Positions 11,726 through 30,309 of a stretch of 62,258 nucleotides of DNA are shown here, piece by piece. Location of the stretch: IMG/VR virus record IMGVR_UViG_3300009049_000003, positions 1 to 62,258 of that record; one strand, given 5' to 3'. A program made the position numbers and the translations under genes. The notes beneath the pieces are model-generated. The model did no database searches. It was not told the DNA's origin and worked only from the letters and a program-made list of their open reading frames with translations. Within the stretch, counting starts at the first letter, position 1. Every line of letters begins with the position of its first letter. The DNA is from a virus.

Positions 11726-12136
11726 ATGAGCGATTGGGTAAACGACATCTATATGATGCATAACCGGTTTGGTGTACGCAAATGGTTTGATGAAAACAAA
11801 GATAATAAAGACTTGATGGATAAGTACCTTAAGTTTCGTTTGTCTATGTGTAAAGAAGAACTTGATGAAACACTCGATGCAGTTGAAGCAAAAGATCCAG
11901 AAGAAATCGTAGACGGCTTAATTGATATGTGTGTATTTGCTATTGGTACATTAGATGTATTCGGCGTAGATGCAAACGAAGCATGGGATCGCGTATACAA
12001 AGCTAATGTATCGAAAGATGTCGGTGTTAAAGAAGGTAGGCCGAACCCTTTCGGATTACCAGATCTTATTAAGCCTGAAGGTTGGGAAGCACCTAATCAC
12101 GATGGTAATCACGGAGATTTAAATAAGGCAGTATAG
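11726..12136 (+). CDS. mazG: MazG-like nucleotide pyrophosphohydrolase
   Basis: 136 residues. The all-alpha NTP pyrophosphohydrolase signature is visible: KEELDETLDAVEAKD (about residues 48-62, EExxE metal ligands) followed by EEIVDGLIDMCVFAIG (about 59-74, ExxD). The C-terminal NPFGLPDLIKPEGWEAP resembles the HisE/MazG-like tail found in phage homologues. Such enzymes hydrolyse (d)NTPs to NMPs; phage MazG has been linked to (p)ppGpp or dNTP pool control, and which applies here cannot be told. It has its own strong promoter. Confidence 0.85.
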   Translation: MSDWVNDIYMMHNRFGVRKWFDENKDNKDLMDKYLKFRLSMCKEELDETLDAVEAKDPEEIVDGLIDMCVFAIGTLDVFGVDANEAWDRVYKANVSKDVGVKEGRPNPFGLPDLIKPEGWEAPNHDGNHGDLNKAV

Positions 12137-13860: not shown

Positions 13861-14468
13861 TATCTAATTTAAAATTACCTGAAGCGCTCGTTATCGAACT
13901 AAACGATGACGAGCTTTCTTACATTAAAACAATGGCACAGGACATTTATGATGTCCCTGCAAAAAGACGAGGCCGCACTCTTGAAACAGTGATGGCACAC
14001 ACGACTGCAGGTGTTATACTTGAGTTCGCATTAGAACGTCAAGGTGCAGTAAAAAATACAGCAGAATTTGATCATACTATACCAGACTCACATAATTGGG
14101 ATGTTGAGTGGAATGGTATGCGGTGTGAAGTAAAGAATGCACAAGATCCAGGTAAAATGCCTGAAGGTTTTGAAATGAAATGGTTAACTATGTCTAATTA
14201 TATGGGTAATAAGTTGGCACGTAATCGTAAGCTATATCCAGAATGTGTTGATGTAGTGATATTTGGTTGTTATTCAAAGGTAGCAGAAAATACTTATGAT
14301 GTACGTTGGAGATGTGTAGCACCTTTTGATACTATACGTGAAACGCTTGCTCCTTGTAATCCAGATTACGATAACAATTGGACAGAAGAAGTTGATGGAT
14401 CTAAGAAACTTAAATTCTTCTATAACCACAGAAAAGAAACCCGTTGTATATATAATCATAACTTATAA
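13857..14468 (+). CDS. Possible PD-(D/E)XK-type nuclease, otherwise unknown
   Basis: 203 residues. The segment with DHTIPDSHNWDVEWNGMR followed by CEVKNA (about residues 72-96) has the D...(D/E)-V-K pattern of the restriction-endonuclease fold: an acidic residue in one strand, then ExK in the next. An upstream helix with a Glu (ILEFALERQG, near 54-63) is also typical. This rests on a short motif only, and the protein could be something else. It is the first larger gene after the small-gene run and is followed within 11 bases by the 358-residue gene. Confidence 0.5.
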   Translation: MISNLKLPEALVIELNDDELSYIKTMAQDIYDVPAKRRGRTLETVMAHTTAGVILEFALERQGAVKNTAEFDHTIPDSHNWDVEWNGMRCEVKNAQDPGKMPEGFEMKWLTMSNYMGNKLARNRKLYPECVDVVIFGCYSKVAENTYDVRWRCVAPFDTIRETLAPCNPDYDNNWTEEVDGSKKLKFFYNHRKETRCIYNHNL

Positions 14469-14479
14469 AGGAGTCAGAC

Positions 14480-15556
14480 GTGCAACTTGAAACAAGACCA
14501 AATTATGATTGTTACGTAGATTACTTCTGGCCTAAATCTAAATGGTTAGAAGAAAATTGTTTAATCGGTGATCTCGATTATCTTGGGCCCGAGGCCGATA
14601 AAAATATCAATGATCCATTAATGCAAAATATTCCAGCTTATAATTGTGTGTCTCGTACATACGAAGGTTTTAATAATGTTAATCAAGATATAAATTATGG
14701 AACAAACCAAATAGTATTTAAGAAAAGACCAGTAGATGTACAAGAACGTGTTAAAAATTATGTAACAGACAAATGGTCTTTACTCGAATATGTTTACGCC
14801 TATTATGTTCATCGTAGTACTGGCTCTGGTTTTTATGCCGGCAAGGATTGGCATGGATATCATCATTCTATTGTATCTCATTTTGGTTTATTAGAAACTG
14901 CAGATGAAATGGCAGATCTAATGAAGGTTTGGAAAGCTGCTGATAGAAAAATGTTTTCTACTATTGGTAACCAAAACCCAACTCCGATAAAAGGAATGAA
15001 TTTACCAGAACACATTACGAGCTTCGGTTTAGATCTTATGAAACAATTAACTGAATGGCTAAAAGAAAATTTAGCTATGAATAATGGTGCTCCTTTAGAT
15101 CAGAAAGAATTAACTGATAGACTTAATCAGAAGAATATAGATAGAGGTATTCGTCGTTGGAACTTTCCTTATGCTCAAATGATTGCTGATATTGCTACAT
15201 ACCACCCAGAATACGTTGATCCAAATTCTAGTTTATATTGTGGTAATAACGCAAGACAAGCAATTGAACAAATGTTTCATAAACCTAAAGGAATGAGTCA
15301 AGTAGAATATCACGATTTAGCACTTGCAGATCTTACAGAAAAGCTTGGTACAAGTGCTGTTGCGCATGAAGATACTTTATGTATTTACGTAAGGTTTTTA
15401 AATAATCTTGATCGCTCAGGCAGAGGCTTAAGAAATGCTTCTGGATATTATATGATGGATAAAGACGACAAGCCAATGTATCCAGATATATGGAGGCCTG
15501 CTGCATTAGAAAAGAAAGTAAGTAGTTCACACTCAGTAATGGAGTTTCTAGCATGA
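14480..15556 (+). CDS. Unrecognised 358-residue protein ahead of the nucleotide-modification operon
   Basis: It starts with GTG at 14480, six bases after AAAGGAGTC. Visible features: YVYAYYVHRSTGSGF near residue 104, DWHGYHHSIVSHFG near 122 (several His), GNQNPTPIKGM near 162, a conserved-looking RRWNFPYAQMIADIATYHPEYV near 229, and YCGNNARQAIEQMF near 255. The sequence looks enzymatic and globular, predicted mainly helical. Its place beside genes for modified cytosine suggests a DNA-base or nucleotide enzyme, possibly related to the helical thymine-hypermodification proteins, but I cannot show that. Confidence 0.75.
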   Translation: MQLETRPNYDCYVDYFWPKSKWLEENCLIGDLDYLGPEADKNINDPLMQNIPAYNCVSRTYEGFNNVNQDINYGTNQIVFKKRPVDVQERVKNYVTDKWSLLEYVYAYYVHRSTGSGFYAGKDWHGYHHSIVSHFGLLETADEMADLMKVWKAADRKMFSTIGNQNPTPIKGMNLPEHITSFGLDLMKQLTEWLKENLAMNNGAPLDQKELTDRLNQKNIDRGIRRWNFPYAQMIADIATYHPEYVDPNSSLYCGNNARQAIEQMFHKPKGMSQVEYHDLALADLTEKLGTSAVAHEDTLCIYVRFLNNLDRSGRGLRNASGYYMMDKDDKPMYPDIWRPAALEKKVSSSHSVMEFLA

Positions 15557-15642
15557 AAACATTTGCACAAATAGTATTAGAATATAGACAGCATAGACGT
15601 TATATTCTTGCAGCATTAAAAGCACAAAAAGAAAAAACTTAG
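15553..15642 (+). CDS. Possible 29-residue peptide
   Basis: An ATG overlapping the stop of the preceding gene (ATGA) opens a short basic helical peptide MKTFAQIVLEYRQHRRYILA... ending KEKT. The coupling and composition look real, but so short a frame could be chance. Confidence 0.3.
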   Translation: MKTFAQIVLEYRQHRRYILAALKAQKEKT

Positions 15643-15671
15643 TATACATTTGAAGAATTACATGATAGAAT
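15643..15671 (+). promoter_or_regulatory. Possible sigma-70 promoter for the modification operon
   Basis: TATACA (15643-15648), 17-nt spacer, TAGAAT (15666-15671). The -10 is the form favoured elsewhere in this genome; the -35 has two mismatches. It lies 34 nt before the MazZ-like gene and is the only candidate promoter until 20922. Confidence 0.45.
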
Positions 15672-15704
15672 ATATCAATGTAATACACACGGAGACTTTA
15701 TATA

Positions 15705-16013
15705 ATGAAATACGACAATAACAAACCACCAATTCATCTTGTACCTACAGTAGCTATTGAAGCTGCAGCTAAGGTATTTGCTTTTGGTGCAGCCAAATAT
15801 TCTGAAAACAATTGGCGTGATGATATTAATACTACTGAATGGGGCAGATCTTATTCTTCTCTTCAGCGTCACCTCATGGCCTATTGGGATAAAGAAGATA
15901 TTGATCCAGAATCTGGTCTTCTTCATTTAGACCATGCATTAACTCAGCTAATGATCCTTCGCGTAGCTTATGATGAAGGCAAAGATATGGATGATAGATA
16001 TGAAACAAAATAA
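15705..16013 (+). CDS. dATP/dGTP diphosphohydrolase family protein (MazZ/DUF5664-like)
   Basis: 102 residues with the DUF5664 signature: start KYDNNKPPIHLVP, VFAFGAAKYSENNW (about 24-37), LQRHLMAYWDKEDIDPESGLLHLDHA (in two parts, about 53-78; acidic and His residues for metal). In phages with 2-aminoadenine DNA, MazZ hydrolyses dATP and dGTP; many DUF5664 proteins occur without that pathway, and no PurZ or matching polymerase is seen here. First gene of the operon; it overlaps the dCMP hydroxymethylase start by 14 bases. Confidence 0.8.
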   Translation: MKYDNNKPPIHLVPTVAIEAAAKVFAFGAAKYSENNWRDDINTTEWGRSYSSLQRHLMAYWDKEDIDPESGLLHLDHALTQLMILRVAYDEGKDMDDRYETK

Positions 16014-16677
16014 TGTAAGTAATATTCGTGAATACTTCTTTAACGAACTAAGCGATAAGAATTTTACCATCGACAAAACCGGTGCTAAAACAATTGAAAT
16101 GTTAGGTGCATCATTTATTGCTGATGAACCAGCTATCTTTGGCACACCTGTTAAATCTTATATTGATGCAGAGCTAGCTTGGTATGAAAGCGGTTCTACT
16201 AATATTATGGATATTCATGGTTTAGATAAAGATCCGCCTGCTGCTTGGCAATATGCTGCTAATGAAAACGGTGAAATCAATTCAAACTACGGACATCTTG
16301 TAGACTCTCCAAAGTTTTATAATCAATATTATAGTGCAATTGAAGAGTTGATTGCTAATCCAGATAGCCGTCGTGCTCAGATGGTTTATAATCGTCCATC
16401 TATTTGGGTTGAATACAACGAGAATGGTAAATCAGATTTCATTTGTACTAATGCGCAAACGTTCTATATTCGCGATAATAAGTTGCATATGGTATCACAA
16501 ATGCGTTCAAACGATGTAGTCTTTGGTTACAAGAATGATTATGCGTGGGCTCAACACCTTATGGATAGAGCTATTGATAATCTAAATGAAGAAGGACATA
16601 ACCTTACAAAAGGTGATCTTACTTGGCAAGTAATGAACTTGCACGTGTACGAGCGTCACTTTAATTTAGTGGAGTAA
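16000..16677 (+). CDS. 42: dCMP hydroxymethylase (T4 gp42-like)
   Basis: 225 residues from the ATG at 16000. In-frame ATGs exist upstream at 15970 and 15991, but only 16000 matches the start of T4 gp42. The family is shown by FTIDKTGAKTIEMLGASF and ADEPAIFG, nearly identical to T4, catalytic C149 in FICTNAQ, and R169-S-N-D with FGYKND. D180 corresponds to T4 D179, the residue that turns a thymidylate-synthase fold into a hydroxymethylase acting on dCMP. It makes 5-hydroxymethyl-dCMP from dCMP and methylene-tetrahydrofolate, so the phage DNA should contain hydroxymethylcytosine. It is about 20 residues shorter at the C-terminus than T4 gp42. Confidence 0.9.
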   Translation: MKQNNVSNIREYFFNELSDKNFTIDKTGAKTIEMLGASFIADEPAIFGTPVKSYIDAELAWYESGSTNIMDIHGLDKDPPAAWQYAANENGEINSNYGHLVDSPKFYNQYYSAIEELIANPDSRRAQMVYNRPSIWVEYNENGKSDFICTNAQTFYIRDNKLHMVSQMRSNDVVFGYKNDYAWAQHLMDRAIDNLNEEGHNLTKGDLTWQVMNLHVYERHFNLVE

Positions 16678-16679
16678 AC

Positions 16680-16898
16680 GTGAGCAAACTAATAAAAATT
16701 ACAGACATACTAGAAACCAAACTTCGTAAAGAAAAAGAAATAGAATTTTACGAAGGTGAAATTAAAAAAATTCGACAGAAAATGATGTTCTTACAAAAGG
16801 ACCTAGACTTAACAAAGCTCATAATATCTATTATTGAGAAAGAAAAAGTTTACGATATAAAAGAAAAAATGGAAACAAGGATGATATCCGATGATTGA
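16680..16898 (+). CDS. Small coiled-coil protein, function unknown
   Basis: 72 residues from a GTG at 16680, two bases after gene 42 with a GGAG ribosome site. Almost the whole chain is a Lys/Glu-rich predicted coiled coil (about residues 10-62). It overlaps the dCMP deaminase start by eight bases. Placement between two dCMP enzymes suggests a structural or regulatory partner, but there is no direct evidence. Confidence 0.6.
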   Translation: MSKLIKITDILETKLRKEKEIEFYEGEIKKIRQKMMFLQKDLDLTKLIISIIEKEKVYDIKEKMETRMISDD

Positions 16899-17436
16899 TG
16901 ATTACGAACCATACGATCAATATATGAAAAGAATGTACAAACAATACCCCGTAGATAGTTTCTTAGATCCTAGTACAACTAAATGGCCAATTCGTTTCAT
17001 GAATATGGCCAAAATGGTTTCTACGTGGAGTAAGGACCCTTCTAGTAAAATCGGTGCTGTAGCAGTAAACGATGAAAGAAATATTCTAGCGACAGGATAT
17101 AACGGGTTTCCAAAGGGTATTGCTGATACTGATGATAGATTAAATAACAGAGCTGAGAAATATCCTCGTATTGTTCATGCAGAAATGAATGCTTTGATGA
17201 ATGCTTTATATAATGGCGTATCATTAAAAGGAGCAACTCTTTATGTTTATGGATTACCGGTCTGTTCAGACTGTACTAAATGTGTTATTCAAGCTGGTGT
17301 AAAATCTCTCTGGATAATGTTACCTTCAGACTCTACCCCCGAAACATGGACTGATATGTGGAATAAGCAATCTAGGCCGATGCTAATGGAAGCTGGTGTA
17401 GATATCTATGGCTTGAAAGAAGAAGAATTGGTTTAA
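16891..17436 (+). CDS. cd: dCMP deaminase
   Basis: 181 residues of the zinc-dependent cytidine/deoxycytidylate deaminase family: H96-A-E98 in IVHAEMNAL supplies the zinc His and the proton-shuttling Glu, and C125/C128 in PVCSDC complete the zinc site. NGFPKG near residue 71 and SSKIGAVAV near 51 are typical of dCMP deaminases. It converts dCMP to dUMP for dTMP synthesis and competes with gp42 for dCMP. A TAATG overlap couples it to the next gene. Confidence 0.92.
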   Translation: MIDDYEPYDQYMKRMYKQYPVDSFLDPSTTKWPIRFMNMAKMVSTWSKDPSSKIGAVAVNDERNILATGYNGFPKGIADTDDRLNNRAEKYPRIVHAEMNALMNALYNGVSLKGATLYVYGLPVCSDCTKCVIQAGVKSLWIMLPSDSTPETWTDMWNKQSRPMLMEAGVDIYGLKEEELV

Positions 17437-17957
17437 TGCACCGAAATAGCGATGCTCAATGGGTAAAGATGAATTTCGATATTCCTTGTTACGATATAGA
17501 ACAAGAATACCTATCAGTCAAAGAAGAATTAGTTATCAATAGACCGCAAGATGGTCATAAGGACTGGTTTGCAGCATCTTTATTCATTAAAGACAATATT
17601 ACAGAGGTAGGATTAAAATGTACTAAGACCGTAGAGTTCATCAAATCATTACCATATGATAGACTAGATGACGTTAGATTTTTAGTTATAAAACCTGAGG
17701 GATATATTGCTGAACACAGCGATGTTCCAGAACACAATTGGCTAGATACTCTTAATATGTCAATTTCATATCCTAATGGAAGTAAGTTCATTCTGAATGG
17801 AGAAGAAGTACCATACCATAAAGGTGCAGCATTTGTTTTGAATGTACACTATTCTCATTGGGTCGAAAATAAATCTGACGAAGAAAGATTGCATTTGATA
17901 ATACACGGAAAAAAGAAGAAAGAGTTTTGGAATGACATTATTGAAATTAGAATGTAG
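17436..17957 (+). CDS. 2-oxoglutarate/Fe(II) oxygenase of the aspartyl/asparaginyl beta-hydroxylase type
   Basis: 173 residues with a cupin-like core. H94-S-D96 and H141 form the 2-His-1-carboxylate iron site, and R151 in the HWVENKSDEERLHL segment is the usual 2-oxoglutarate anchor; HxVxNxSxxxRxHL is the family hallmark. Known members hydroxylate protein side chains or small molecules. In this operon a nucleotide, DNA or modification intermediate is a possible substrate, which is inference. Translation is coupled to the dCMP deaminase, and the methyltransferase gene starts five bases later. Confidence 0.75.
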   Translation: MHRNSDAQWVKMNFDIPCYDIEQEYLSVKEELVINRPQDGHKDWFAASLFIKDNITEVGLKCTKTVEFIKSLPYDRLDDVRFLVIKPEGYIAEHSDVPEHNWLDTLNMSISYPNGSKFILNGEEVPYHKGAAFVLNVHYSHWVENKSDEERLHLIIHGKKKKEFWNDIIEIRM

Positions 17958-17962
17958 TATCG

Positions 17963-18598
17963 ATGGCAACTAATTTAACTGATATTTACACCGGAGTAAA
18001 AAAGGACGATGCTAATAGAAGACAGAATGATTTTTATCCAACACCTCCTTTGGCAACATTCGTTCTAGGAAAGTATTGTAAACCGCCAAAAAATATTGTT
18101 GAGCCTTGTGCTGGCCGTGGTAATATATCTAAGCAACTTCAAAGAATGGGTCACAGCGTAACTAGTTATGATTTAAACTCTTATGATAATTGCTTGACTG
18201 AAGTCCACACACCTTATGATGCAATGGAACTGCAACCGCAATTTGCAGATGGTGTTGTGACAAATCCTCCTTATCACAAAGATTTACCAAGAAAACTAGC
18301 AGAGAAATTCATATCTGAATATGACTATACTGCAATGTTTTTACGTATTACATTTTTAGAGGGTAAGAAGAGAAAGAAATTGTTTACAAATAATCCTCCT
18401 AGTGATATAATCTTTTTATCTGATAGAGTTAAATTCAGTTCAGATCATATAGAACCTATCGAAAAAGAAGATCAGATAGGTGGTATGATTGCTTATATGT
18501 GGATAGTATGGGATAGAAGACATTCTTGGTCGGGCCTTACTAAAATGCAATGGGTTACTCTAGAAAATGAATACGAAGAATTTAGAAAAACTGTTTAG
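17963..18598 (+). CDS. Amino-group (probably N6-adenine) DNA methyltransferase
   Basis: 211 residues. DFYPTPP (23-29) is typical of phage adenine methylases, EPCAGRGNIS (47-56) is the SAM-binding motif I, and TNPPY (100-104) is the NPPY catalytic motif IV. It is short and lacks an evident separate target-recognition domain. It probably methylates phage DNA for protection from host nucleases. The target base is inferred from NPPY; N4-cytosine is not excluded. Confidence 0.75.
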   Translation: MATNLTDIYTGVKKDDANRRQNDFYPTPPLATFVLGKYCKPPKNIVEPCAGRGNISKQLQRMGHSVTSYDLNSYDNCLTEVHTPYDAMELQPQFADGVVTNPPYHKDLPRKLAEKFISEYDYTAMFLRITFLEGKKRKKLFTNNPPSDIIFLSDRVKFSSDHIEPIEKEDQIGGMIAYMWIVWDRRHSWSGLTKMQWVTLENEYEEFRKTV

Positions 18599-18607
18599 GA
18601 GAATATT

Positions 18608-19714
18608 ATGAAATCAGCAATGGCATCGCCTTTTGTTCCCATATCTTTTCAATTGCCAAACCATAGAGCTGCGCAAGGTGTAATTTATGCGGATATGATT
18701 AGTCATTACCTTGATGTTGGTGAAATGAAAATTATTATGTCTAAATCTTCTGTTCAGGGTGCGGCCGCAAAAGAAGCAGCTAAACAAGAAGATTTTAATC
18801 AATACGACAATCTTTATATCTATCATGGTAATGATCGTAAAGAAGGTGCAACAGATATTAATTTCTTTGGAGGAACAAAAGGTTTTCCTCATGCATATAA
18901 CATTCGTAATATTTCCAGATTTAAAGGTCAAGTCTATTCATTAGAATATGATATGCCAGATTATGCATCAATGTTAGAATATAAGCTTAACGCTATGAAA
19001 GCAAAAGAAGGTAATCTTGATTCTGTAGTTCCAGAGTTTAGAGAAGTAGATTTAGATAATCTAAGAGAAATGCAGAAGAACGCTATCACTATCAAACCAC
19101 AACATCCTACTTGGGATCGAATGGTTATTGGAGATAGTCATGCTATTTCAATGTATAGACCTGGTTACAATGTCAATTCAGTTCAATTTAAAACTTTATA
19201 TGGTGCGTTAGAAATGGGCCTTGAAAGTTTCATAAATAGAGATAATGTTAAACATATTGAGTGTTACTTTGGTAACATCGATATTAGACACCATCTTTGC
19301 AGACAAGACGATACTAAACAAGCGATAAGAACTCTTGTTGACCGTTATGTTGAAGCTGTAGACTCTTTGGATATGGAAAGTAAAGTGATTTGTGAGTTAT
19401 TACCAATCGAAAATGAACGCCGCAACTTGCCAAAATCTGGCATGTATAAAGGCACAAAGTTCTTCGGCTCTTGGGCTGAGCGTAATGATGCACGCTTATA
19501 TTTTAAAGAATATGCTATGAGTAAGGTTCAAGGAACAGATGTACAATTTAAGGAATGGATTACACCACATTTCTATAATGGCATAGGAGAACTTGATTTT
19601 AAAGCAATGGAAAGTCCAAAGTCTGTCCATCTTTCTAGAGAGTTTTATCCACATTGGCAAGGCAAAGAATATAATGATATCGAAGAAAATACTATAGAAG
19701 ATTTCTTTTCGTGA
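18608..19714 (+). CDS. GDSH-motif (SGNH-hydrolase-like) protein, function unknown
   Basis: 368 residues. The centre contains RMVIGDSHAISMY (near residue 172; GDS is SGNH block I) and YFGNIDIRHHL (near 221; resembles the G-N-D of blocks II/III). A SVHLS near residue 345 sits where SGNH enzymes have DxxH, but the Asp is absent. It ends EDFFS like other proteins here. The first 160 residues are unlike anything I recognise. It is in the modification operon and overlaps the C5-methyltransferase-like gene, so an acyl- or sugar-processing step in base modification is conceivable but unproven. Confidence 0.65.
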   Translation: MKSAMASPFVPISFQLPNHRAAQGVIYADMISHYLDVGEMKIIMSKSSVQGAAAKEAAKQEDFNQYDNLYIYHGNDRKEGATDINFFGGTKGFPHAYNIRNISRFKGQVYSLEYDMPDYASMLEYKLNAMKAKEGNLDSVVPEFREVDLDNLREMQKNAITIKPQHPTWDRMVIGDSHAISMYRPGYNVNSVQFKTLYGALEMGLESFINRDNVKHIECYFGNIDIRHHLCRQDDTKQAIRTLVDRYVEAVDSLDMESKVICELLPIENERRNLPKSGMYKGTKFFGSWAERNDARLYFKEYAMSKVQGTDVQFKEWITPHFYNGIGELDFKAMESPKSVHLSREFYPHWQGKEYNDIEENTIEDFFS

Positions 19715-20925
19715 AGCACGCCACTATTATACCCTTAATAGGTGGTGAAGCTCTTGCATCTACAGAAGTATTTGGTTCAAAGCCAGAGTATATTTTATCG
19801 TATGAAGCATTTAAAGATAATGAACAACATCTTTTGAATTATTGGGAAAATAAAGTTCCTTATTATATTCTCGATAAGGGCCAATCTCCTGACTTAAACC
19901 AGAAAATAGATGTTGTATCAAGTGTTTGTCCGTGTGCAGGTTTAAGTACTATGCATCATGCTCACGGCGAAACAAACGAGAATAACCAATGGATGGAGCT
20001 AAGCGCAGAGTATATTCTTTCTAATGTAAAGCCAAATGTATTTTGGGGAGAGAACGCTGCATCACTATCTGGAAAGATAGGCGAGTTTATGCTTAATAAG
20101 CTTAGACAAATCGGATTAGATAATGGTTATTCGATGTCTTTATATCTTACTAAAAATATTAAACATGGTGTTCCTCAGTTCAGAAAGCGTACATTTTATT
20201 TCTTTTGGAAGAAAGACATGTTCGGTGAAAAAACTCCTGTTCTGCACTTTTATAATAAACCTCACAAGAAAATAGAAGATATTATTAACGGTGTAACATC
20301 AAATACTCAAATGGATGTGATCAATAAGAAAATTCCTTCTAAGGATGATCCTTACTATCGTTACCTTTTAGAAGAAGTTCATGGTGGGATTACTCATAGA
20401 GAATATCATGATATAATGGTAACAAAAAACGTAAGGGCAAATGACGCTGAATGCGCGATTGAACGTGCAGGTCATGACTATAAAAGAATAGCTAAATGGA
20501 TGGGTGATAACGGATATCATAGAGAAGTTCCAAAATGTGAACGTAAATATGAAAAGCTTCAGGCTGGAGGCAATCTTATGAGAAGAGGAACAATGGTTCC
20601 TAAAGATTATATTGGAGCTTTCGTTGGTCATTACCCAAAAATGTTAACTCATCCATACGAAGATAGATATATAACTATTCGAGAAGCAATGACTATTATG
20701 GGTTTGCCTCAAGACTTTGAGTTGTTAGATCCAAAGAATTCTATCAATCACATCTGCCAAAACGTTCCTTACGAAACAGCAAAGGATATGGCTACTGAGA
20801 TTAAACACGTATTCGAAGGAAATAGACCTTGGTCAGATACAGACTTTTTGTTTCAAACGAATATAGATGAAACAACAGAACAATGGAATGTAACTGAAAA
20901 TAACCTCGAAAGCTTTTTCGGTTGA
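19711..20925 (+). CDS. DNA cytosine-C5 methyltransferase-like protein
   Basis: 404 residues from a GTG (19711) overlapping the previous stop (GTGA). C5-methyltransferase motifs in order: a divergent motif I IPLIGGEALASTEVFG (7-22) where FxGxGG is usual, P74-C75 in CPCAGLS (motif IV, nucleophile Cys, PCQ changed to PCA), GENAAS (113-118, motif VI ENV), HGVPQFRKRTF (152-162, motif VIII), YITIREAMTIMGLP (motif IX) and a C-terminal CQNVPYETAKDMA (motif X). The catalytic Cys and Arg are present. Since gp42 would already place hydroxymethyl at C5, the role is puzzling. It ends LESFFG, a clamp-type tail. Confidence 0.75.
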   Translation: MKHATIIPLIGGEALASTEVFGSKPEYILSYEAFKDNEQHLLNYWENKVPYYILDKGQSPDLNQKIDVVSSVCPCAGLSTMHHAHGETNENNQWMELSAEYILSNVKPNVFWGENAASLSGKIGEFMLNKLRQIGLDNGYSMSLYLTKNIKHGVPQFRKRTFYFFWKKDMFGEKTPVLHFYNKPHKKIEDIINGVTSNTQMDVINKKIPSKDDPYYRYLLEEVHGGITHREYHDIMVTKNVRANDAECAIERAGHDYKRIAKWMGDNGYHREVPKCERKYEKLQAGGNLMRRGTMVPKDYIGAFVGHYPKMLTHPYEDRYITIREAMTIMGLPQDFELLDPKNSINHICQNVPYETAKDMATEIKHVFEGNRPWSDTDFLFQTNIDETTEQWNVTENNLESFFG

Positions 20926-20949
20926 CATTTTATCAATACAATATACAAT
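20922..20949 (+). promoter_or_regulatory. Sigma-70-type promoter for dexA
   Basis: TTGACA (20922-20927), 16-nt spacer, TACAAT (20944-20949), 26 nt before dexA. The TGA in TTGACA is the stop codon of the preceding gene. Confidence 0.7.
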
Positions 20950-20974
20950 ACGACTATGTAACGAAAGTGAGAAT

Positions 20975-21613
20975 ATGAGAAAAGATTTTATTTTAGATTT
21001 CGAAACCATCGGTAGTGATGCAAAAGTAATACCAGTTATTAATTGTGCTTACACTACATTTGAATGGGATAGGTTTGAATCCGATAACCCTTACTCTTTC
21101 CAAGAGTTAGTAGCTACAATGCAGAAATCTAAACTTGACATTAAAGACCAGATGCAGAATCACGGTTGTAAGTATACTAGCGCAGATTTGCAATGGTGGC
21201 TTGATAAACCTGCTGCACTAAGAGTTGACTTAAAACCAAGCGAAGACGATTTAAACCCAAATCAATTCATGGCAAAACTACTTGACTACTTATTAAGCTC
21301 TAATAAGATTTCTTATTGGTGGAGTAGGTCAAACACATTCGATCCCATTATTCTCGATAGAATGGCAGAGATCTCAAACAAAAAGAACCAATTAAGTGCT
21401 TACTTGCCTTATTGGAAAGTAAGAGATACGAGAACTTATATCGATGCAAAGTTCAACTTTCCAGGAAACAACGGATTTTGTCCGTTTCCTGACGAAGAAA
21501 AATGGGAAATTACATTTAACGCTCACGATGCAAAACATGATGTAGCGGCTGATATCATGAGATTACAGGCAATCACTCGAGCAGAATTAGATATGGAGTT
21601 ACCTAATGGCTAA
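20975..21613 (+). CDS. dexA: Exonuclease A (DexA), 3'-5' DnaQ-like exonuclease
   Basis: 212 residues (T4 DexA 227). DnaQ-fold acidic motifs: LDFETIG (about 8-14, DxE), WSRSNTFDPIILDRM (about 115-129) and HDAKHDVAADIMRLQ (about 183-197, HxAxxD). T4 DexA degrades DNA from 3' ends and can substitute in DNA turnover. It overlaps the glycosyltransferase start by eight bases, so the two are probably one transcript. Confidence 0.88.
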   Translation: MRKDFILDFETIGSDAKVIPVINCAYTTFEWDRFESDNPYSFQELVATMQKSKLDIKDQMQNHGCKYTSADLQWWLDKPAALRVDLKPSEDDLNPNQFMAKLLDYLLSSNKISYWWSRSNTFDPIILDRMAEISNKKNQLSAYLPYWKVRDTRTYIDAKFNFPGNNGFCPFPDEEKWEITFNAHDAKHDVAADIMRLQAITRAELDMELPNG

Positions 21614-22475
21614 TTTACAAATTTCAGTGGAAGAACTTAGAAAATACAAGATATTTGTAGGTACCCCAATGTACGGTGGTAATTGCACTGGTTCTTATAC
21701 TAAATCATGCACAGACTTAGCGATGATATGCGCTGCTAATGGCATTACGATTAAGTTTTATTATTTGTTTAATGAAAGCTTAATTCAAAGAGCAAGAAAT
21801 TACGTGGTAGATGAATTTATGAGATCTGATTGTACGCATCTAATATTCATAGATAGCGATATTGCTTTTGATCCAAGAGATGTTCTTGGCATGCTTGCCA
21901 TACAAGTAGCAGATCCTAAAAAATATAATATTGTTACTGGACCATATCCAAAGAAAACTATAGCTTGGGAAAAAGTAAAAGCCGCGGCAGATCAAGGTAA
22001 AGCAGATGAATCGCCCTTTGAACTTGACCAATACACTGCTGATTATGTGTTTAATCCAGTCAATAAACTTAAAAGTTTTAATATGGCAGAACCTTTAGAA
22101 ATCGGTGAAGGCGGTACAGGATTTATGTGTATTCCAAGAGAAACTTTTGAAACATACAAAAAAGCTTACCCAGAATATTCATACAAACCAGATCATGCCC
22201 GCACTGAAAACTTTGACGGCACGAATGAGATTATGGCTTACTTCGATTGTGTTATTGATGCAGGATCAAAAAGATATCTAAGTGAAGATTACTTCTTTTG
22301 CAGACAATCTCGTAAAGCTGGAATGAAAGTTTGGATGTGTCCTTGGATGAAGATAAACCATATAGGTACTTACATCTTCAAGGGAAATATGGGAGCTATA
22401 GGATCACTTGGCGTATCAGCGACAGCAGATAAGTCATCTTCTAAACGAAGCTACAAGAAAAACAAAAAAAGTTGA
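21606..22475 (+). CDS. GT-A (family 2-like) glycosyltransferase, candidate DNA-base glycosyltransferase
   Basis: 289 residues. IFVGTPMYGG at the start, SLIQRARNYVVDEFM (58-72), and HLIFIDSDIAFDP with the metal-binding D83-S-D85 (DxD) are typical of GT-A glycosyltransferases using a nucleotide sugar. LSEDYFFCRQSRKAGMKVW near residue 224 is the ED-containing acceptor or catalytic region. A Lys/Ser-rich tail (about 275-289) could bind DNA. No T4 alpha- or beta-glucosyltransferase homologue is in the window, so this is the best candidate to glycosylate hydroxymethylcytosine; modification of a cell or virion surface is the alternative. Confidence 0.8.
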   Translation: MANLQISVEELRKYKIFVGTPMYGGNCTGSYTKSCTDLAMICAANGITIKFYYLFNESLIQRARNYVVDEFMRSDCTHLIFIDSDIAFDPRDVLGMLAIQVADPKKYNIVTGPYPKKTIAWEKVKAAADQGKADESPFELDQYTADYVFNPVNKLKSFNMAEPLEIGEGGTGFMCIPRETFETYKKAYPEYSYKPDHARTENFDGTNEIMAYFDCVIDAGSKRYLSEDYFFCRQSRKAGMKVWMCPWMKINHIGTYIFKGNMGAIGSLGVSATADKSSSKRSYKKNKKS

Positions 22476-22500
22476 CATTTTCGCAATATTAAAGTAAGAT
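22472..22500 (+). promoter_or_regulatory. Sigma-70-type promoter for gene 45
   Basis: TTGACA (22472-22477), 17-nt spacer, TAAGAT (22495-22500), 33 nt before gene 45. The TGA in TTGACA is the glycosyltransferase stop. Confidence 0.7.
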
Positions 22501-22532
22501 ACAATCTATATAATACAATAGGAGACTATATA

Positions 22533-23195
22533 ATGAAATTTTCTGAAAATACTCTTACAATACTTAAGAGTTTCTCTACTATCAACAAGTCTATCTTGTT
22601 GAAACCTGGCAATACACTTAAAACAATCACACCAGAGAAAACATTAGTTGCTAAAGCAACCATCTCTGAAAGCTTACCTTCTGAAGCATGTGTATATGAT
22701 TTATCAAGATTTCTTTCAATTTTAGGCCTTTATAAGGACCCTGACGTTGAGTTTCATGATAAATACTTCACTATTGCTGAAGGTAAACAACGTACAAAAT
22801 ACGCGTTTGCCGATATTTCAATGATACATGCAGCCCCAGAAAAAGATATCGAATTGCCATCATCAGATGTTATTGTTGATGTTCTTTGGGACGACATGCA
22901 ATCTGTAATCAAAGCTGCTGGTGTTCTTCAGTTTAATGAAGTTGCATTTGTTGGTAGTGAAGGTAAAGTATACCTGAAAGCTATTAATAGCGCAGATACA
23001 AGCGCCGATGATTATGGTGTTGAAATTGGCACAACACAAGACGAATTTAAGGTTATTATCAAAACTGATAATCTTAAGCTCCTACCTCAGAACTATCATG
23101 TTACCCTTTGCGCAAAGGGTATCTCTGAGTTTAAAGGGGAAACCGCTACTTATTATGTAGCAATTGATACTAAGTCGACTTATCAGAAAGGATAA
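22533..23195 (+). CDS. 45: Sliding clamp gp45
   Basis: 220 residues (T4 228). The start MKFSENTLTILKSFSTINKSILLKPGN parallels T4 MKLSKDTTALLKNFATINSGIMLKSGQ in shorter runs, VYDLSRFLSILGL matches T4 IYDLNGFLGILSL, and the C-terminal LCAKGISEFKGE matches T4 LWAKGKQGAAKFEGE. It forms the trimeric ring that holds gp43 on DNA and, in T4, activates late transcription with gp55. Followed after three bases by a small gene and then the clamp loader. Confidence 0.95.
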   Translation: MKFSENTLTILKSFSTINKSILLKPGNTLKTITPEKTLVAKATISESLPSEACVYDLSRFLSILGLYKDPDVEFHDKYFTIAEGKQRTKYAFADISMIHAAPEKDIELPSSDVIVDVLWDDMQSVIKAAGVLQFNEVAFVGSEGKVYLKAINSADTSADDYGVEIGTTQDEFKVIIKTDNLKLLPQNYHVTLCAKGISEFKGETATYYVAIDTKSTYQKG

Positions 23196-23198
23196 AAT

Positions 23199-23462
23199 AT
23201 GAGCGATCAAGAACAACCACAACAAGAGCCAGTAAATCTGTCTCTTCAAGATATCGCAACCGTCGTACAATTGATTGACGTAGTCAGTCGCCGCGGTGGT
23301 ATTGAAGGCCGAGAACTTGCAGGCATTGGAATGCTTCGTAATAAATTCGAAGTTTTCTTGCAGCAAAATGCACCGCAAGGTGAAGCACCAGAAGGTAGTA
23401 TGCCGGTAGACGCACCAGCAGCTGTACCTGAAGATGCACCGCTTGCTGACAAGGTTCAGTAA
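23199..23462 (+). CDS. Small protein between clamp and clamp loader, function unknown
   Basis: 87 residues, three bases after gene 45. A helical core DIATVVQLIDVVSRRGGIEGRE (in two parts, about 18-40) followed by MLRNKFEVFLQ, and a Pro/Ala/Asp-rich disordered C-terminus (about 58-87). Similar small proteins in this position are familiar from marine T4-like phages, without an assigned function. The position suggests a replisome accessory role, which is inference. Confidence 0.75.
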   Translation: MSDQEQPQQEPVNLSLQDIATVVQLIDVVSRRGGIEGRELAGIGMLRNKFEVFLQQNAPQGEAPEGSMPVDAPAAVPEDAPLADKVQ

Positions 23463-23524
23463 TACTAAACGACGCAGGCTCTCGTTATAAACCTGCAATT
23501 TATATATTATGAAATGGTGATTAT

Positions 23525-24478
23525 ATGTCTATTGATGCTAAAGCAAATGAAGTACTGTGGGTTGAAAAGTATCGACCACAAAAAATAAACGATACAATTC
23601 TACCAGAAAACACCAAGGCAATGTTTAAAAAGTTTGTAGCTGATGATAGCATTCCAAACTTATTGTTGTCTGGTGGTCCAGGTGTAGGTAAAACAACTAT
23701 CGCAAAAGCCATGCTTGAAGAAATGGGTTGTGATTATATTGTAAAGAATGGTTCATTGAATGTTAACATTGATACTCTTCGTTATGATATTTCAACATAT
23801 GCCTCGGCTGTATCCCTTAGTGGTGGTCGTAAATATGTTATCTTTGATGAAGCTGACTACCTAAACGCTGCAAATGTTCAACCAGCTTTACGTAACTTTA
23901 TCGAAGAATATTCATCTAATTGCGGATTTATATTTACGTGTAACTTTAAAAACCGTATCATTGCACCTCTCCGCTCTCGTTTGAGTGAAGTTGATTTCAC
24001 TATAGAAACAACTGATAGACCATCTATGGCAGCACAATTCTATAAACGCGTGCTACAAATACTTGAGTTAGAACAGGTAGATTTTGATAAAAAAGTAGTT
24101 GCTAAAGTTATTGAGCGCCACTTCCCTGATTTCCGTCGTGTACTTACTGAGCTACAATCATATGCAGCTTCAGGTCGTATTGATGAAGGCATATTTGTTA
24201 ATCTAAAACAAGATTCAATGGATGAAATATTCAGGCTACTTAAAGCTAAAGACTTTACTAACATGAGAAAATGGGTTGCAAACAATTCAGATCAAGATAT
24301 GAATGAAATGTTTAGGCGTATATATGATATGGCTTCTGAAAAGATTGAATTGCGTTCATTACCAGGTTTCGTAGTTACTCTTGCTGATTACATGTACAAA
24401 GCTAACTTCGTAGCTGACTTAGAAGTTAACATGGTTGCTTTCTTAACAGAAGTAATGATGGAAGCAGAGTATAAATGA
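23525..24478 (+). CDS. 44: Clamp loader large subunit gp44 (AAA+ ATPase)
   Basis: 317 residues (T4 319). Walker A GGPGVGKTT (50-58), Walker B YVIFDEAD (104-111), sensor 1 FTCNFKNRI near 138, and the arginine-finger box LRSRLSEVDF near 149. Four gp44 with one gp62 load gp45 onto primer-template DNA. A GCAGG/CCTGC hairpin (23473-23496) precedes the gene and could affect its translation; in T4 this region is a RegA target. It overlaps the next gene by four bases. Confidence 0.95.
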   Translation: MSIDAKANEVLWVEKYRPQKINDTILPENTKAMFKKFVADDSIPNLLLSGGPGVGKTTIAKAMLEEMGCDYIVKNGSLNVNIDTLRYDISTYASAVSLSGGRKYVIFDEADYLNAANVQPALRNFIEEYSSNCGFIFTCNFKNRIIAPLRSRLSEVDFTIETTDRPSMAAQFYKRVLQILELEQVDFDKKVVAKVIERHFPDFRRVLTELQSYAASGRIDEGIFVNLKQDSMDEIFRLLKAKDFTNMRKWVANNSDQDMNEMFRRIYDMASEKIELRSLPGFVVTLADYMYKANFVADLEVNMVAFLTEVMMEAEYK

Positions 24479-27799: not shown

Positions 27800-27965
27800 A
27801 CAAACACAATATTGCACAACTAAAGGACTTGGTTGGGCTTTCTTAGTCATATTCTTTATTATTGGTGTTTTACCGGTATTAATGTTAATGGCAATGGTTG
27901 GTCTCGAAGATTACGGCCGTTATTGTAATTTAAATATTTTACCATGTTTTGGATTAGGTAAATGA
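27792..27965 (+). CDS. Small single-pass membrane protein
   Basis: 57 residues from ATG 27792; an in-frame ATG at 27780 is an alternative. One long hydrophobic segment, about residues 13-36, is followed by a Cys-containing tail (C45, C52). Start overlaps the preceding stop and the stop overlaps the aldolase start (ATGA). Function unknown. Confidence 0.55.
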   Translation: MSEQTQYCTTKGLGWAFLVIFFIIGVLPVLMLMAMVGLEDYGRYCNLNILPCFGLGK

Positions 27966-28825
27966 GCGATTTAAAATTCACAACAGCAGGTGATTTTTTA
28001 GAAAGCCAAACCCGCTATGATGCAAGATTCATAGCGGCAATGGACCACAGCGGTGGTTCGACTGGCGGTGTATTAGAACGTTATGGTCGTGAATACACCG
28101 AAGAAAACAAGATGGATCGTGTACACGAAATGAGAATGAGAATGGTTAATTCTCCTGATTTCAACGATACAAATGTTTGGGCCGCAATTCTTTATAAAGA
28201 TACAGTTACTCGAGGAATGGTTAATGAACTCGCAAATAAAGGTATCGACTCCTTTTTAAAGATAGATGACGGCTGTGAAGAAAGCGGGATGCTTAAACAG
28301 TTTCCTGTAAAACAAATATTAGAATTTGCTACTGACGGATTAGGTGAACCTATATACGGAACTAAGATGCGAAGCATTATTAAAAGTATAGATATGGTTG
28401 AGCCTATTCTAAAGCAGCAATTTACTTTGGCACATACAATCCAAGAATACGGACTTATGCCAATAGTAGAACCCGAAGTTCCTATTGATCACGAAGAAAA
28501 AGAATTAATAGAACACGAGTTATACGACGCGTTACAAAAATACTTAATTGGAAAAGATTACCAAGTTATTTTAAAGCTGACGCCTCCAGAAGTACCCAAC
28601 CTATATCACAATCTTACAGCAAACCATAGTGTAAACCGTATTGTGTTTCTTAGTGGAGGATACGCAACAGCTGAAGCGTGTCGTAGATTATCGATGAATC
28701 ATGATGTCACTGCAAGTTTTAGTAGAGCTTTAAGTGAAGGTTTGAATCATAATCAAACTGATGCTGAGTTTAATGCTAAAATATCTCAGAACATTAGAAT
28801 GATTGTTGACGCAACGTCAGGATAA
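27962..28825 (+). CDS. fda: Class I fructose-bisphosphate aldolase
   Basis: 287 residues, matching the short bacterial class I aldolases of the Staphylococcus type: FIAAMDHSGGSTGG (23-36), HEMRMRMVNSPDF (55-67), IYGTKMRS, LMPIVEPEVPID (165-176), ILKLTPPEVPNLY with the probable Schiff-base Lys K205, VFLSGGYA (228-235) and ASFSRALS (251-258) for phosphate binding. It cleaves or forms fructose-1,6-bisphosphate. All active-site segments look intact, so this is an apparently functional auxiliary metabolic gene, perhaps steering host sugar phosphates during infection. Confidence 0.92.
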   Translation: MSDLKFTTAGDFLESQTRYDARFIAAMDHSGGSTGGVLERYGREYTEENKMDRVHEMRMRMVNSPDFNDTNVWAAILYKDTVTRGMVNELANKGIDSFLKIDDGCEESGMLKQFPVKQILEFATDGLGEPIYGTKMRSIIKSIDMVEPILKQQFTLAHTIQEYGLMPIVEPEVPIDHEEKELIEHELYDALQKYLIGKDYQVILKLTPPEVPNLYHNLTANHSVNRIVFLSGGYATAEACRRLSMNHDVTASFSRALSEGLNHNQTDAEFNAKISQNIRMIVDATSG

Positions 28826-28899: not shown

Positions 28900-30309
28900 A
28901 TGTTAAAAAACAAAGACCCAAGTTTATATAATGAAGACTTGGCTCCCATTCCAGAAAAGAAACGTACATGGGGTGCGTTCGAGATTTTTAACGTATGGTC
29001 TAACGACATTCAAAGTTTGTTTGGTTATACGCTAGCAGCATCTCTATTCATCTCATTTGGTTTAAACGGTTGGACAGTATTTGCTGCCATCATGTTGGCC
29101 GGTCTTTTTGTAATGTGGTTAGTCAATTTGATGGGTGAGCCAAGCGTTAAGTACGGTATCCCATTCCCTGTTATGGCTCGTTCGAGTATGGGGGTAAGAG
29201 GTGCTAACTTCCCGGCTGTGGCCCGCGGAATTGTAGCAATCTTTTGGTATGGTGCACAAACTTATTTCGCATCAACCGCAGTATCGCTATTAATTTCGGC
29301 ATTAGCAGGTGGAAATGGGGAAGCAGTAATGCTAGGTATGAGTACAATCGATTGGGTATCGTTCCTATTCGTTTGGGCATTTCAAGTATATCTGTTCTGG
29401 AAAGGTATCCCTTGGATTACTAAATTCCTAAATTTCGCAGGTCCTTTTGTTTACGCAGTAATGATTGCTTTGGCTCTCACTATTTGGGTAAAAGCAGGTT
29501 CAGGACTTACTACAGAAATGGGTACAATCTTTGAAGGTACAGGCGAATACGTAGGTACATCTTTCTCAGCATTCGTAGCTATTGTAGGAACAATGATCGC
29601 TTATTTCGCAGCAGTTGTAATTAACTATGGTGACTTCTCACGTAACGTTAAAACACAAGCTGCAATGAAAAAAGGTAACTTGATTGGTTTGCCATTGAAT
29701 ATTGCATTCTTTTCATTGATTACACTTATCGTTACTTCAGGTACTATTGCAATCTGGGGTGAAGCGGTTACAAGTCCAACTGATATTATTGCGATGGTAG
29801 ATTCTTTACCATTGACTGTCGTTGCAGCGATTATGTTTTTCGTAGCAACTATCGGTATTAATATCGTTGCAAACTTTATCCCTCCAGCGTATGATATCGC
29901 TAATCTAATGCCTTCAAAAATCGATTTTAAACTCGGTGGTTTGATTACATCAGGTTTTGCTCTTATCATTGGTGGATTATGGGTATCAACTATTTCACAG
30001 CTCGGTATCTTCGGGTTTGTTAATACTTTAGGAGCTGTACTTGCACCTATCTACGGTATTATGATGGTTGATTACTACATGCTTAAGAAAGGCAAATTAA
30101 ACGTAGAACAATTATTCTCGGCATCTGAAGATGGTGAGTATTACTACGATAATGGTTGGAACAAAAAAGCTATGATCGCTTTTGTTGTACCTGCTATTTT
30201 CTCAGTAGCGACTGTCTGGGTAGGTTCATTGGCATTCTTGTCAGGTTTCTCTTGGGTAATTGGCGCTGCACTTGGTGGTTTAGTTTATTACGCAATTACT
30301 AAAAAATAA
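28900..30309 (+). CDS. NCS1-family nucleobase:cation symporter
   Basis: 469 residues, full length for the NCS1 (Mhp1/PucI/Fur-type) family with about 12 hydrophobic segments. Signature: NEDLAPIPEKKRTWG (11-25), KYGIPFPVMARSSMGVRGANFPA (two parts, 84-106), FWYGAQT with W116 and Q120, equivalent to Mhp1 W117 and Q121 in the substrate site, and NIVANFIPPAYDIANLMP in the helix 8 region. It would import a nucleobase, hydantoin or allantoin with Na+ or H+ across the inner membrane. The substrate cannot be predicted. It has its own promoter, operator-like repeat, AAGGAG site and terminator, forming a self-contained unit unusual in a phage. Confidence 0.92.
   Translation: MLKNKDPSLYNEDLAPIPEKKRTWGAFEIFNVWSNDIQSLFGYTLAASLFISFGLNGWTVFAAIMLAGLFVMWLVNLMGEPSVKYGIPFPVMARSSMGVRGANFPAVARGIVAIFWYGAQTYFASTAVSLLISALAGGNGEAVMLGMSTIDWVSFLFVWAFQVYLFWKGIPWITKFLNFAGPFVYAVMIALALTIWVKAGSGLTTEMGTIFEGTGEYVGTSFSAFVAIVGTMIAYFAAVVINYGDFSRNVKTQAAMKKGNLIGLPLNIAFFSLITLIVTSGTIAIWGEAVTSPTDIIAMVDSLPLTVVAAIMFFVATIGINIVANFIPPAYDIANLMPSKIDFKLGGLITSGFALIIGGLWVSTISQLGIFGFVNTLGAVLAPIYGIMMVDYYMLKKGKLNVEQLFSASEDGEYYYDNGWNKKAMIAFVVPAIFSVATVWVGSLAFLSGFSWVIGAALGGLVYYAITKK

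Follow-up and report, generated by a model that had tools for sequence, protein, structure and literature searches.

The 62,258-base IMG/VR virus record IMGVR_UViG_3300009049_000003 (hereafter, the window) is a fragment from a T4-superfamily phage and carries, at positions 15643-22475, an operon that had been predicted from its letters alone to hypermodify cytosine in phage DNA. The explanation that we favor, with moderate confidence, is that cytosine is replaced by 5-hydroxymethylcytosine (5hmC or hmC) and then decorated through a route centered on a protein of previously unassigned function, P7, without T4-type glucosyltransferases and without participation of a GT-A-type glycosyltransferase (GT)-like protein encoded downstream. 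The presence of hmC with a decoration other than that of T4 is supported by the analysis; the chemistry of the decoration we infer, and the group that P7 transfers to the base is probably different from a sugar. The key parts of the system are P7 (the 'GDSH' protein of the original prediction) and a divergent C5-cytosine methylase (C5MT), both of which that prediction had touched only in passing. The main genes, with coordinates from open reading frame (ORF) calling and identities from Pfam and PHROG domain searches, are the following:

14480-15556, + strand: gene X, all-helical, with a fold like that of the helix-hairpin-helix (HhH) DNA-glycosylase superfamily (predicted structure; no Pfam or PHROG match)
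15970-16677, + strand: dCMP hydroxymethylase (HMase) of T4 gp42 type, 5-hmdCMP synthase (PF00303, 7e-16; PHROG thymidylate synthase, 2.5e-46)
16891-17436, + strand: dCMP deaminase (PF00383, 4.9e-19; phrog_174)
18608-19714, + strand: P7, candidate hmC-decorating enzyme (phrog_13881, 3e-44, a PHROG without assigned function)
19711-20925, + strand: C5MT (PF00145, 4.5e-20, match starting at profile position 45)
21606-22475, + strand: GT-A-like protein encoded at the sliding-clamp locus and here assigned no part in the hmC system (phrog_1574, 3e-60)

A constant hydroxymethylase and an exchangeable decoration slot

The HMase belongs to the thymidylate synthase (TS) superfamily and has Asp190 where E. 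coli TS has Asn177, together with the catalytic Cys159, and both residues are kept in 48/48 relatives. The Asn-to-Asp change at TS177 is a known switch to dCMP (PMC8670742). Because the RB69 homologue was reported in a 2026 study to produce 5-hydroxy-dCMP (PMC13390438), the window HMase was compared with that enzyme. It is 47.8% identical to T4 gp42 versus 22.1% to the RB69 5-hydroxy-dCMP synthase, it groups with T4 gp42 in the tree, and its family retains the T4-type residues E60, W82 and N178. Identity, tree and site table rule out an RB69-like 5-hydroxy-dCMP synthase, and sequence comparison gives 5-hydroxymethyl-dCMP as the expected product. A gp42-type enzyme with the dCMP-specificity Asp makes it very likely that the virus DNA contains 5hmC, in agreement with the hydroxymethylcytosine synthesis originally proposed. 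The true start of the HMase is probably near 16000, not 15970.

The comparative analysis made use of loci picked by query (P7, X, C5MT or GT-A), which form non-random samples, and the clusters derived from them are not independent. In the loci retrieved with P7, the gene order is HMase, dCMP deaminase, a variable module, P7 and C5MT, with the module consisting either of INO1-like, HAD-like and HMUDK_hel-like proteins or of two X-type proteins and a pyridoxal phosphate (PLP) enzyme. Across sister viruses the conserved order is HMase, dCMP deaminase, a decoration slot and C5MT, and the window P7 sits in this slot, between the dCMP deaminase and C5MT. HMase was present in all 41 C5MT-query loci with enough upstream DNA. 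P7 is absent from 31 of these 41, in which the slot holds another cassette: a true T4 DNA alpha-glucosyltransferase (AGT; PF11440, E 3.6e-73), a different GT, UDP-galactopyranose mutase and an epimerase accompanied by a GT-like family, or a nucleotidyltransferase-kinase with a GT.

Among 56 loci with both HMase and C5MT, 44 carry a GT and 12 carry P7, with none of these sampled IMG/VR loci carrying both and none carrying neither (Fisher value 6e-19, which is descriptive only because the loci were chosen by query). Clustering the HMases at 85% identity yielded 39 P7-only clusters, 30 GT-only clusters and a single mixed cluster, made up of two different viruses with near-identical HMases and different cassettes, which looks like the outcome of a recent cassette swap. 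Conversely, where at least 6 kb of upstream DNA is available, HMase accompanies P7 in 41/42 loci from the P7 query, 12/12 from the X query and 9/9 from the C5MT query. The pattern shows phages exchanging putative hmC-decorating cassettes (alpha-GT, galactofuranose-type GT and P7 types) behind a constant HMase and a constant C5MT. The replacement of glycosyltransferases by P7 in the slot thereby lends sequence-level support to the earlier proposal of a decoration differing from that of T4.

Two further observations concern the composition of these loci. A protein with a myo-inositol-1-phosphate synthase domain (PF01658, 2e-9; locus L010, 7061-8356) is a steady member of HMase-P7 loci in many viruses. 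In addition, UDP-galactopyranose mutase is encoded together with a Pfam-unmatched GT-like family in three sampled loci (L242, 5003-7994; L276, 5846-7989; L033, 2776-4957). The occurrence of such genes suggests that certain phages, Aeromonas phage 25 among them, contain galactofuranosyl-hmC.

P7, C5MT and gene X

The predicted structure of P7 has a predicted local distance difference test score (pLDDT) of 88 and a predicted template modeling score (pTM) of 0.84. In this model, residues 163-351 are predicted to adopt the SGNH hydrolase/acyltransferase fold (Foldseek E 8.7e-6; VIA Z 12-13), and the structural matches of this C-terminal half in VIA are platelet-activating factor (PAF)-acetylhydrolase, acetyl esterases and their relatives. 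Conserved residues of the SGNH blocks are retained by the family: S177 of block I and N223 of block III in 91/91 sequences, and H341 of block V in 90/91. The N-terminal half (about residues 1-165, with 1-120 tested) resembles the acceptor domain of T4 beta-glucosyltransferase (BGT) in hhalign (probability 71%, E 3.8e-5, score 42.4). A 115-sequence P7 profile scored 40.4 against BGT, while in the controls 60 shuffled BGTs reached at most 33.0 and 92 unrelated ORFs at most 23.0. P7 and BGT have in common an NFFGG motif (Asn in 113/115 sequences, both Gly in 115/115), and the position equivalent to D100, the catalytic base of BGT, is Asp in 82/115. The SGNH fold of P7 stands in place of the C-terminal UDP-glucose-binding Rossmann domain of BGT.

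The BGT-like nature of the N-terminal half is thus moderately supported by sequence comparison. The Pfam profile for T4 beta-GT (PF09198) reaches this part of P7 below threshold, at 18716-18952 (E 0.0011, and 0.0011 to 0.09 across searches). The P7 profile gave no match to PDB sequences, and the PDB structures listed as matching the full-length P7 model are SGNH proteins, with BGT not among them. The similarity of the P7 N-terminal half to the GT369 family of sister cassettes is weak (score 25). A search of the window with the T4 alpha-GT profile (PF11440), which is positive on sister loci, returned no match; as the record is a 62-kb virus fragment, absences such as that of AGT are valid for the window only. 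The absence of T4 glucosyltransferase types noted in the original prediction holds for whole enzymes, the sub-threshold PF09198 trace in the GDSH protein having been passed over.

P7 is a large unannotated phage protein family. It was identified in 43 GenBank phage records, mostly of Aeromonas phages (44RR, 31, 25, AS4) and further including Stenotrophomonas IME13 and Tenacibaculum phages, and in at least 554 IMG/VR stretches among the 600 matches listed. HMase was detected by search in the P7 carriers 44RR, 25 and IME13. A megablast search with positions 14000-24000 of the window against 50,697 phage records returned no match. In the bacterial and archaeal species genome collection, P7 is present in 8 contigs, all in metagenome bins. 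Two of these, FZLS01000008.1 and FZLS01000007.1 (P7 99% and 74% identical), come from a single Rhodobacteraceae metagenome bin (Water_Bin34) and are probably phage contigs binned with or near a host; such a host would be consistent with the alphaproteobacterial phages in which relatives of the GT-A gene occur.

C5MT accompanies HMase whatever the decoration type. In 67/67 sequences, C5MT homologues preserve Cys75 (motif IV), Glu114-Asn115 (motif VI) and Arg158-x-Arg160 (motif VIII), and in the same 67 the F-x-G-x-G of the S-adenosylmethionine (AdoMet)-binding motif I is replaced by P-L-(I/V)-G-G; motif X is altered, and the Pfam match of the window C5MT begins past motif I. Canonical C5-methylases can couple thiols to 5hmC (PMC7176277), so that, by analogy, an AdoMet-free action of C5MT on hmC is possible. 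Handling of residual cytosine (by hydroxymethylation or otherwise) and plain methylation are also possible. Taken by itself, C5MT could be a conventional 5-methylcytosine methylase that depends on AdoMet and has no connection with hmC, as its match to the Pfam C5 methylase family and its retained catalytic Cys, EN and RxR would suggest. We regard this as rather unlikely, given the substituted motif I, the altered motif X and the invariable association with HMase (41/41), an enzyme that removes the substrate of an ordinary methylase. No report of a constant partnership between HMase and a C5-methylase homologue without the usual AdoMet motif was found in the literature searched. Cyanophage S-TIM5 was considered as an instance of C5MT without an hmC-type enzyme, since the window HMase found no match in it, but a protein annotated as thymidylate synthase (locus L004, 2766-3602), encoded near its C5MT homologue, has Asp at TS177. 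S-TIM5 is for this reason not a clean counter-example, and its sequence indicates that it may carry modified cytosine.

Gene X, which the original prediction overlooked, is part of the system. It was modeled with pTM 0.70 and pLDDT 65.7, and the top 26 rows of the VIA structure comparison all correspond to the HhH DNA-glycosylase superfamily (8-oxoG/AlkA/MutY/DUF2419-type), with Z from 8.7 to 4.6; the remaining rows have Z of 4.2 or less, and the Foldseek evidence is weak (E 0.18). A glycosylase-like fold is, on the basis of this model, moderately supported. The aGPT-PPlase and HMUDK_hel Pfam profiles matched neither the window X nor 33 members of its family, and hhalign revealed no relation between HMUDK_hel-type proteins and X families. 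Searches with X retrieve viruses with a compact set of HMase, P7 and X, in which P7 immediately adjoins X in 24 of the 25 X-query loci showing P7; many X-query loci have no visible C5MT or GT-A gene. The window X lies upstream of HMase, about 3 kb from P7. Gene X belongs with P7 and HMase.

The remaining genes of the operon and its surroundings were assigned as follows:

11726-12136, + strand: MazG/PRA-PH-type pyrophosphohydrolase, candidate dCTP-lowering enzyme (PF01503, 1.4e-10)
15705-16013, + strand: dATP/dGTP diphosphohydrolase N-domain protein, MazZ-like, nucleotide pool (PF18909, 2e-28)
17436-17957, + strand: 2-oxoglutarate oxygenase of Asp/Asn hydroxylase type (PF05118, 1e-15)
17963-18598, + strand: N6-type DNA methyltransferase (phrog_799, 1.1e-38)
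20975-21613, + strand: DexA-like exonuclease (phrog_255, 8.9e-23)

The gene list originally given for 15643-22475 proved correct on both coordinates and identities, and the named operon genes all lie on the + strand, with overlapping or abutting ends. PRA-PH proteins co-occur with thymidylate synthase domains in modified-cytosine contigs (PMC8670742), and the PRA-PH/MazG-like pyrophosphohydrolase and the dCMP deaminase fit a remodeling of the nucleotide pool. The oxygenase gave only the PF05118 match and a weak cupin match, and no TET/JBP profile; among the loci fetched, it is present only in near-identical copies of this virus (5 loci) and may therefore be a recent addition to the cassette. 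The N6-type methyltransferase is probably outside the decoration system, since it is also found beside GT cassettes. Elsewhere in the window, a nucleobase permease (28900-30309; PF02133, E 1.7e-83) is encoded beside a class-I fructose-bisphosphate aldolase (27962-28825; PF00274, 3e-6), a pair of host-type metabolic genes that is unusual for a phage, and a subtilisin-type peptidase (48502-50160; PF00082, 2.7e-25) is encoded within the structural gene region.

Proposed mechanism and alternative explanations

In the mechanism that we propose, HMase would make hm-dCMP, with the dCMP deaminase and the pyrophosphohydrolases shaping the nucleotide pool. P7 would be the enzyme in the slot that carries out the decoration. 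With the BGT-like N-terminal half it would hold the hydroxymethylated base within double-stranded DNA, and with the SGNH half it would transfer a group, most likely of acyl type, to the hydroxymethyl oxygen. Gene X, with its glycosylase-like fold, may present or activate the base, and C5MT, with a Cys/Glu/Arg set suited to attack on cytosine C6, may act on hmC or on leftover cytosine. The GT-A gene would be a member of the clamp locus with no part in decoration. A bolder generalization, which we advance only tentatively, is a widespread non-glycosidic 5hmC hypermodification, in which P7 is an acyl-type DNA transferase built from BGT-like and SGNH domains, aided by glycosylase-fold and PLP/inositol-synthase-like helpers (a cytosine counterpart of the M6/ViI thymidine pathways) and by an hmC-activating, AdoMet-independent C5-methylase homologue.

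One alternative for the decorating role is the GT-A-like protein, to which the original prediction had pointed. It presents a GT-A-type DxD motif (FIDSDI) and weak Pfam GT matches, and its gene lies shortly downstream of the hmC cassette. The distribution of this gene argues against such a role. Its best relatives occur in phages DLP6, Cr30 and phiM12, Ochrobactrum phage OC and Rhizobium phage RHph_I1_18, where it lies upstream of the sliding clamp gene, adjoining it or a few genes off, and a search with the window HMase (gp42-like) returned no match in any of these five phages. Of 79 further IMG/VR loci, 69 extend far enough downstream, and 67 of these have the sliding clamp beside the GT-A gene; 22 extend at least 6 kb upstream, and 16 of these lack genes for HMase, P7, C5MT, X and HMUDK_hel. 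Moreover, viruses with P7, X and HMase have no GT-A gene nearby, and the gene is found alongside true AGT cassettes too. Because of this distribution the protein is rejected as the decorator, and its glycosylating hmC appears highly improbable; a DxD enzyme other than the T4 types is indeed present, but the role assigned to it is not supported.

It is also conceivable that a gene beyond the 62-kb window encodes an enzyme that glycosylates hmC, with P7 as an accessory, for example a sugar esterase or a repair or editing enzyme. As the window record is a fragment, the rest of the genome could encode a GT; sugar esterases are frequent among SGNH enzymes; and Aeromonas phage 25 combines P7 with UDP-galactopyranose mutase and a GT-family protein. 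Against this, the slot of the sampled HMase and C5MT loci holds P7 or a GT, never both, and the N-terminal half of P7 resembles the hmC-binding domain of BGT, not a sugar-binding module; we consider this explanation improbable. Quite improbable, in our assessment, is that 5hmC stays undecorated in the DNA and that P7, X and C5MT serve, for instance, to discriminate host from phage DNA. DexA, encoded in the same operon, does tell 5hmC DNA from plain cytosine DNA in T4 (PMC12153337), and no donor-making enzyme is visible in the window, where INO1, PLP and HMUDK_hel genes are absent. However, P7 occupies the decorating slot, and relatives add INO1/HAD/HMUDK_hel or PLP/X modules of biosynthetic appearance. 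Several points also weigh against the mechanism proposed above. The catalytic Asp of SGNH block V (DxxH) is replaced, position 338 being K, Q, H or R in 91 sequences; the resemblance to BGT is moderate, with PF09198 under its cut-off; and the loci come from the query-picked samples described above, with their non-independent clusters. Furthermore, UDP-galactopyranose mutase accompanies P7 in both phage 25 and IME13, the former of which additionally encodes a GT369-family protein. P7 and sugar are therefore not strict alternatives, and the P7 family could act on a sugar, as phage 25 suggests.

Relation to known hypermodification systems

The decoration of 5hmC via P7 would place an unrecognized enzyme family within known phage hmC hypermodification. 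As in the pathway of T4 gp42 and the alpha- and beta-glucosyltransferases, the window encodes a gp42-type HMase, a dCMP deaminase and DexA, the N-terminal half of P7 moderately resembles the BGT acceptor domain, and sister viruses retain a true AGT in the slot. Unlike T4, the window has no whole AGT or BGT, an SGNH fold replaces the donor domain, and a constant C5MT and gene X are present. The 5-carbamoyloxymethylcytosine system, with the DNA carbamoyltransferase identified by metaGPA (PMC8670742), likewise encompasses a phage HMase, a non-glycosyl transferase acting on hmC, and PRA-PH and dCMP deaminase neighbors, but no carbamoyltransferase domain is found here and P7 is an unrelated SGNH/BGT-like chimera. 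The RB69/Mosigvirus arabinosyl-cytosine systems (PMC13390438, PMC6024577) also combine a dCMP enzyme of the thymidylate synthase superfamily with a variable sugar cassette; the RB69 enzyme, in contrast, makes 5-hydroxy-dCMP and shares only 22% identity with the HMase of the window.

In M6-like and ViI-type phages, thymidine hypermodifications are built by a gene set comprising a pyrimidine hydroxymethylase, two aGPT-PPlases (aGPT-PPlase1/2), a PLP enzyme and a kinase (PMC9476957). In relatives of the window locus, the pyrimidine hydroxymethylase similarly has as neighbors either two related X-type proteins with a PLP enzyme or an HMUDK_hel-domain protein. The two systems differ in that cytosine is the base concerned here, the aGPT-PPlase Pfam profile does not match X, and no kinase or radical S-adenosylmethionine (rSAM) enzyme was recognized in the locus. 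By analogy, the module of two X-type proteins and a PLP enzyme next to a dCMP hydroxymethylase resembles an M6-type pathway adapted to cytosine.

The closest counterparts among cultured viruses are Aeromonas phages 44RR, 31 and 25, which have gene 42 and no known glucosyltransferase, and for which Petrov et al. (2010) left open how hmC is decorated and protected (PMC2993671). Unlike the window, they show no C5MT match in tblastn searches, and phage 25 has the aforementioned sugar genes. Like the window, they encode a member of the P7 family, which in 44RR is fused to an HMUDK_hel-like domain in ORF233c (locus L003, 6001-8388), annotated as hypothetical. P7 is thus a specific candidate for the protection of hmC in 44RR, 31 and 25, and its presence in cultured phages makes the question directly testable.

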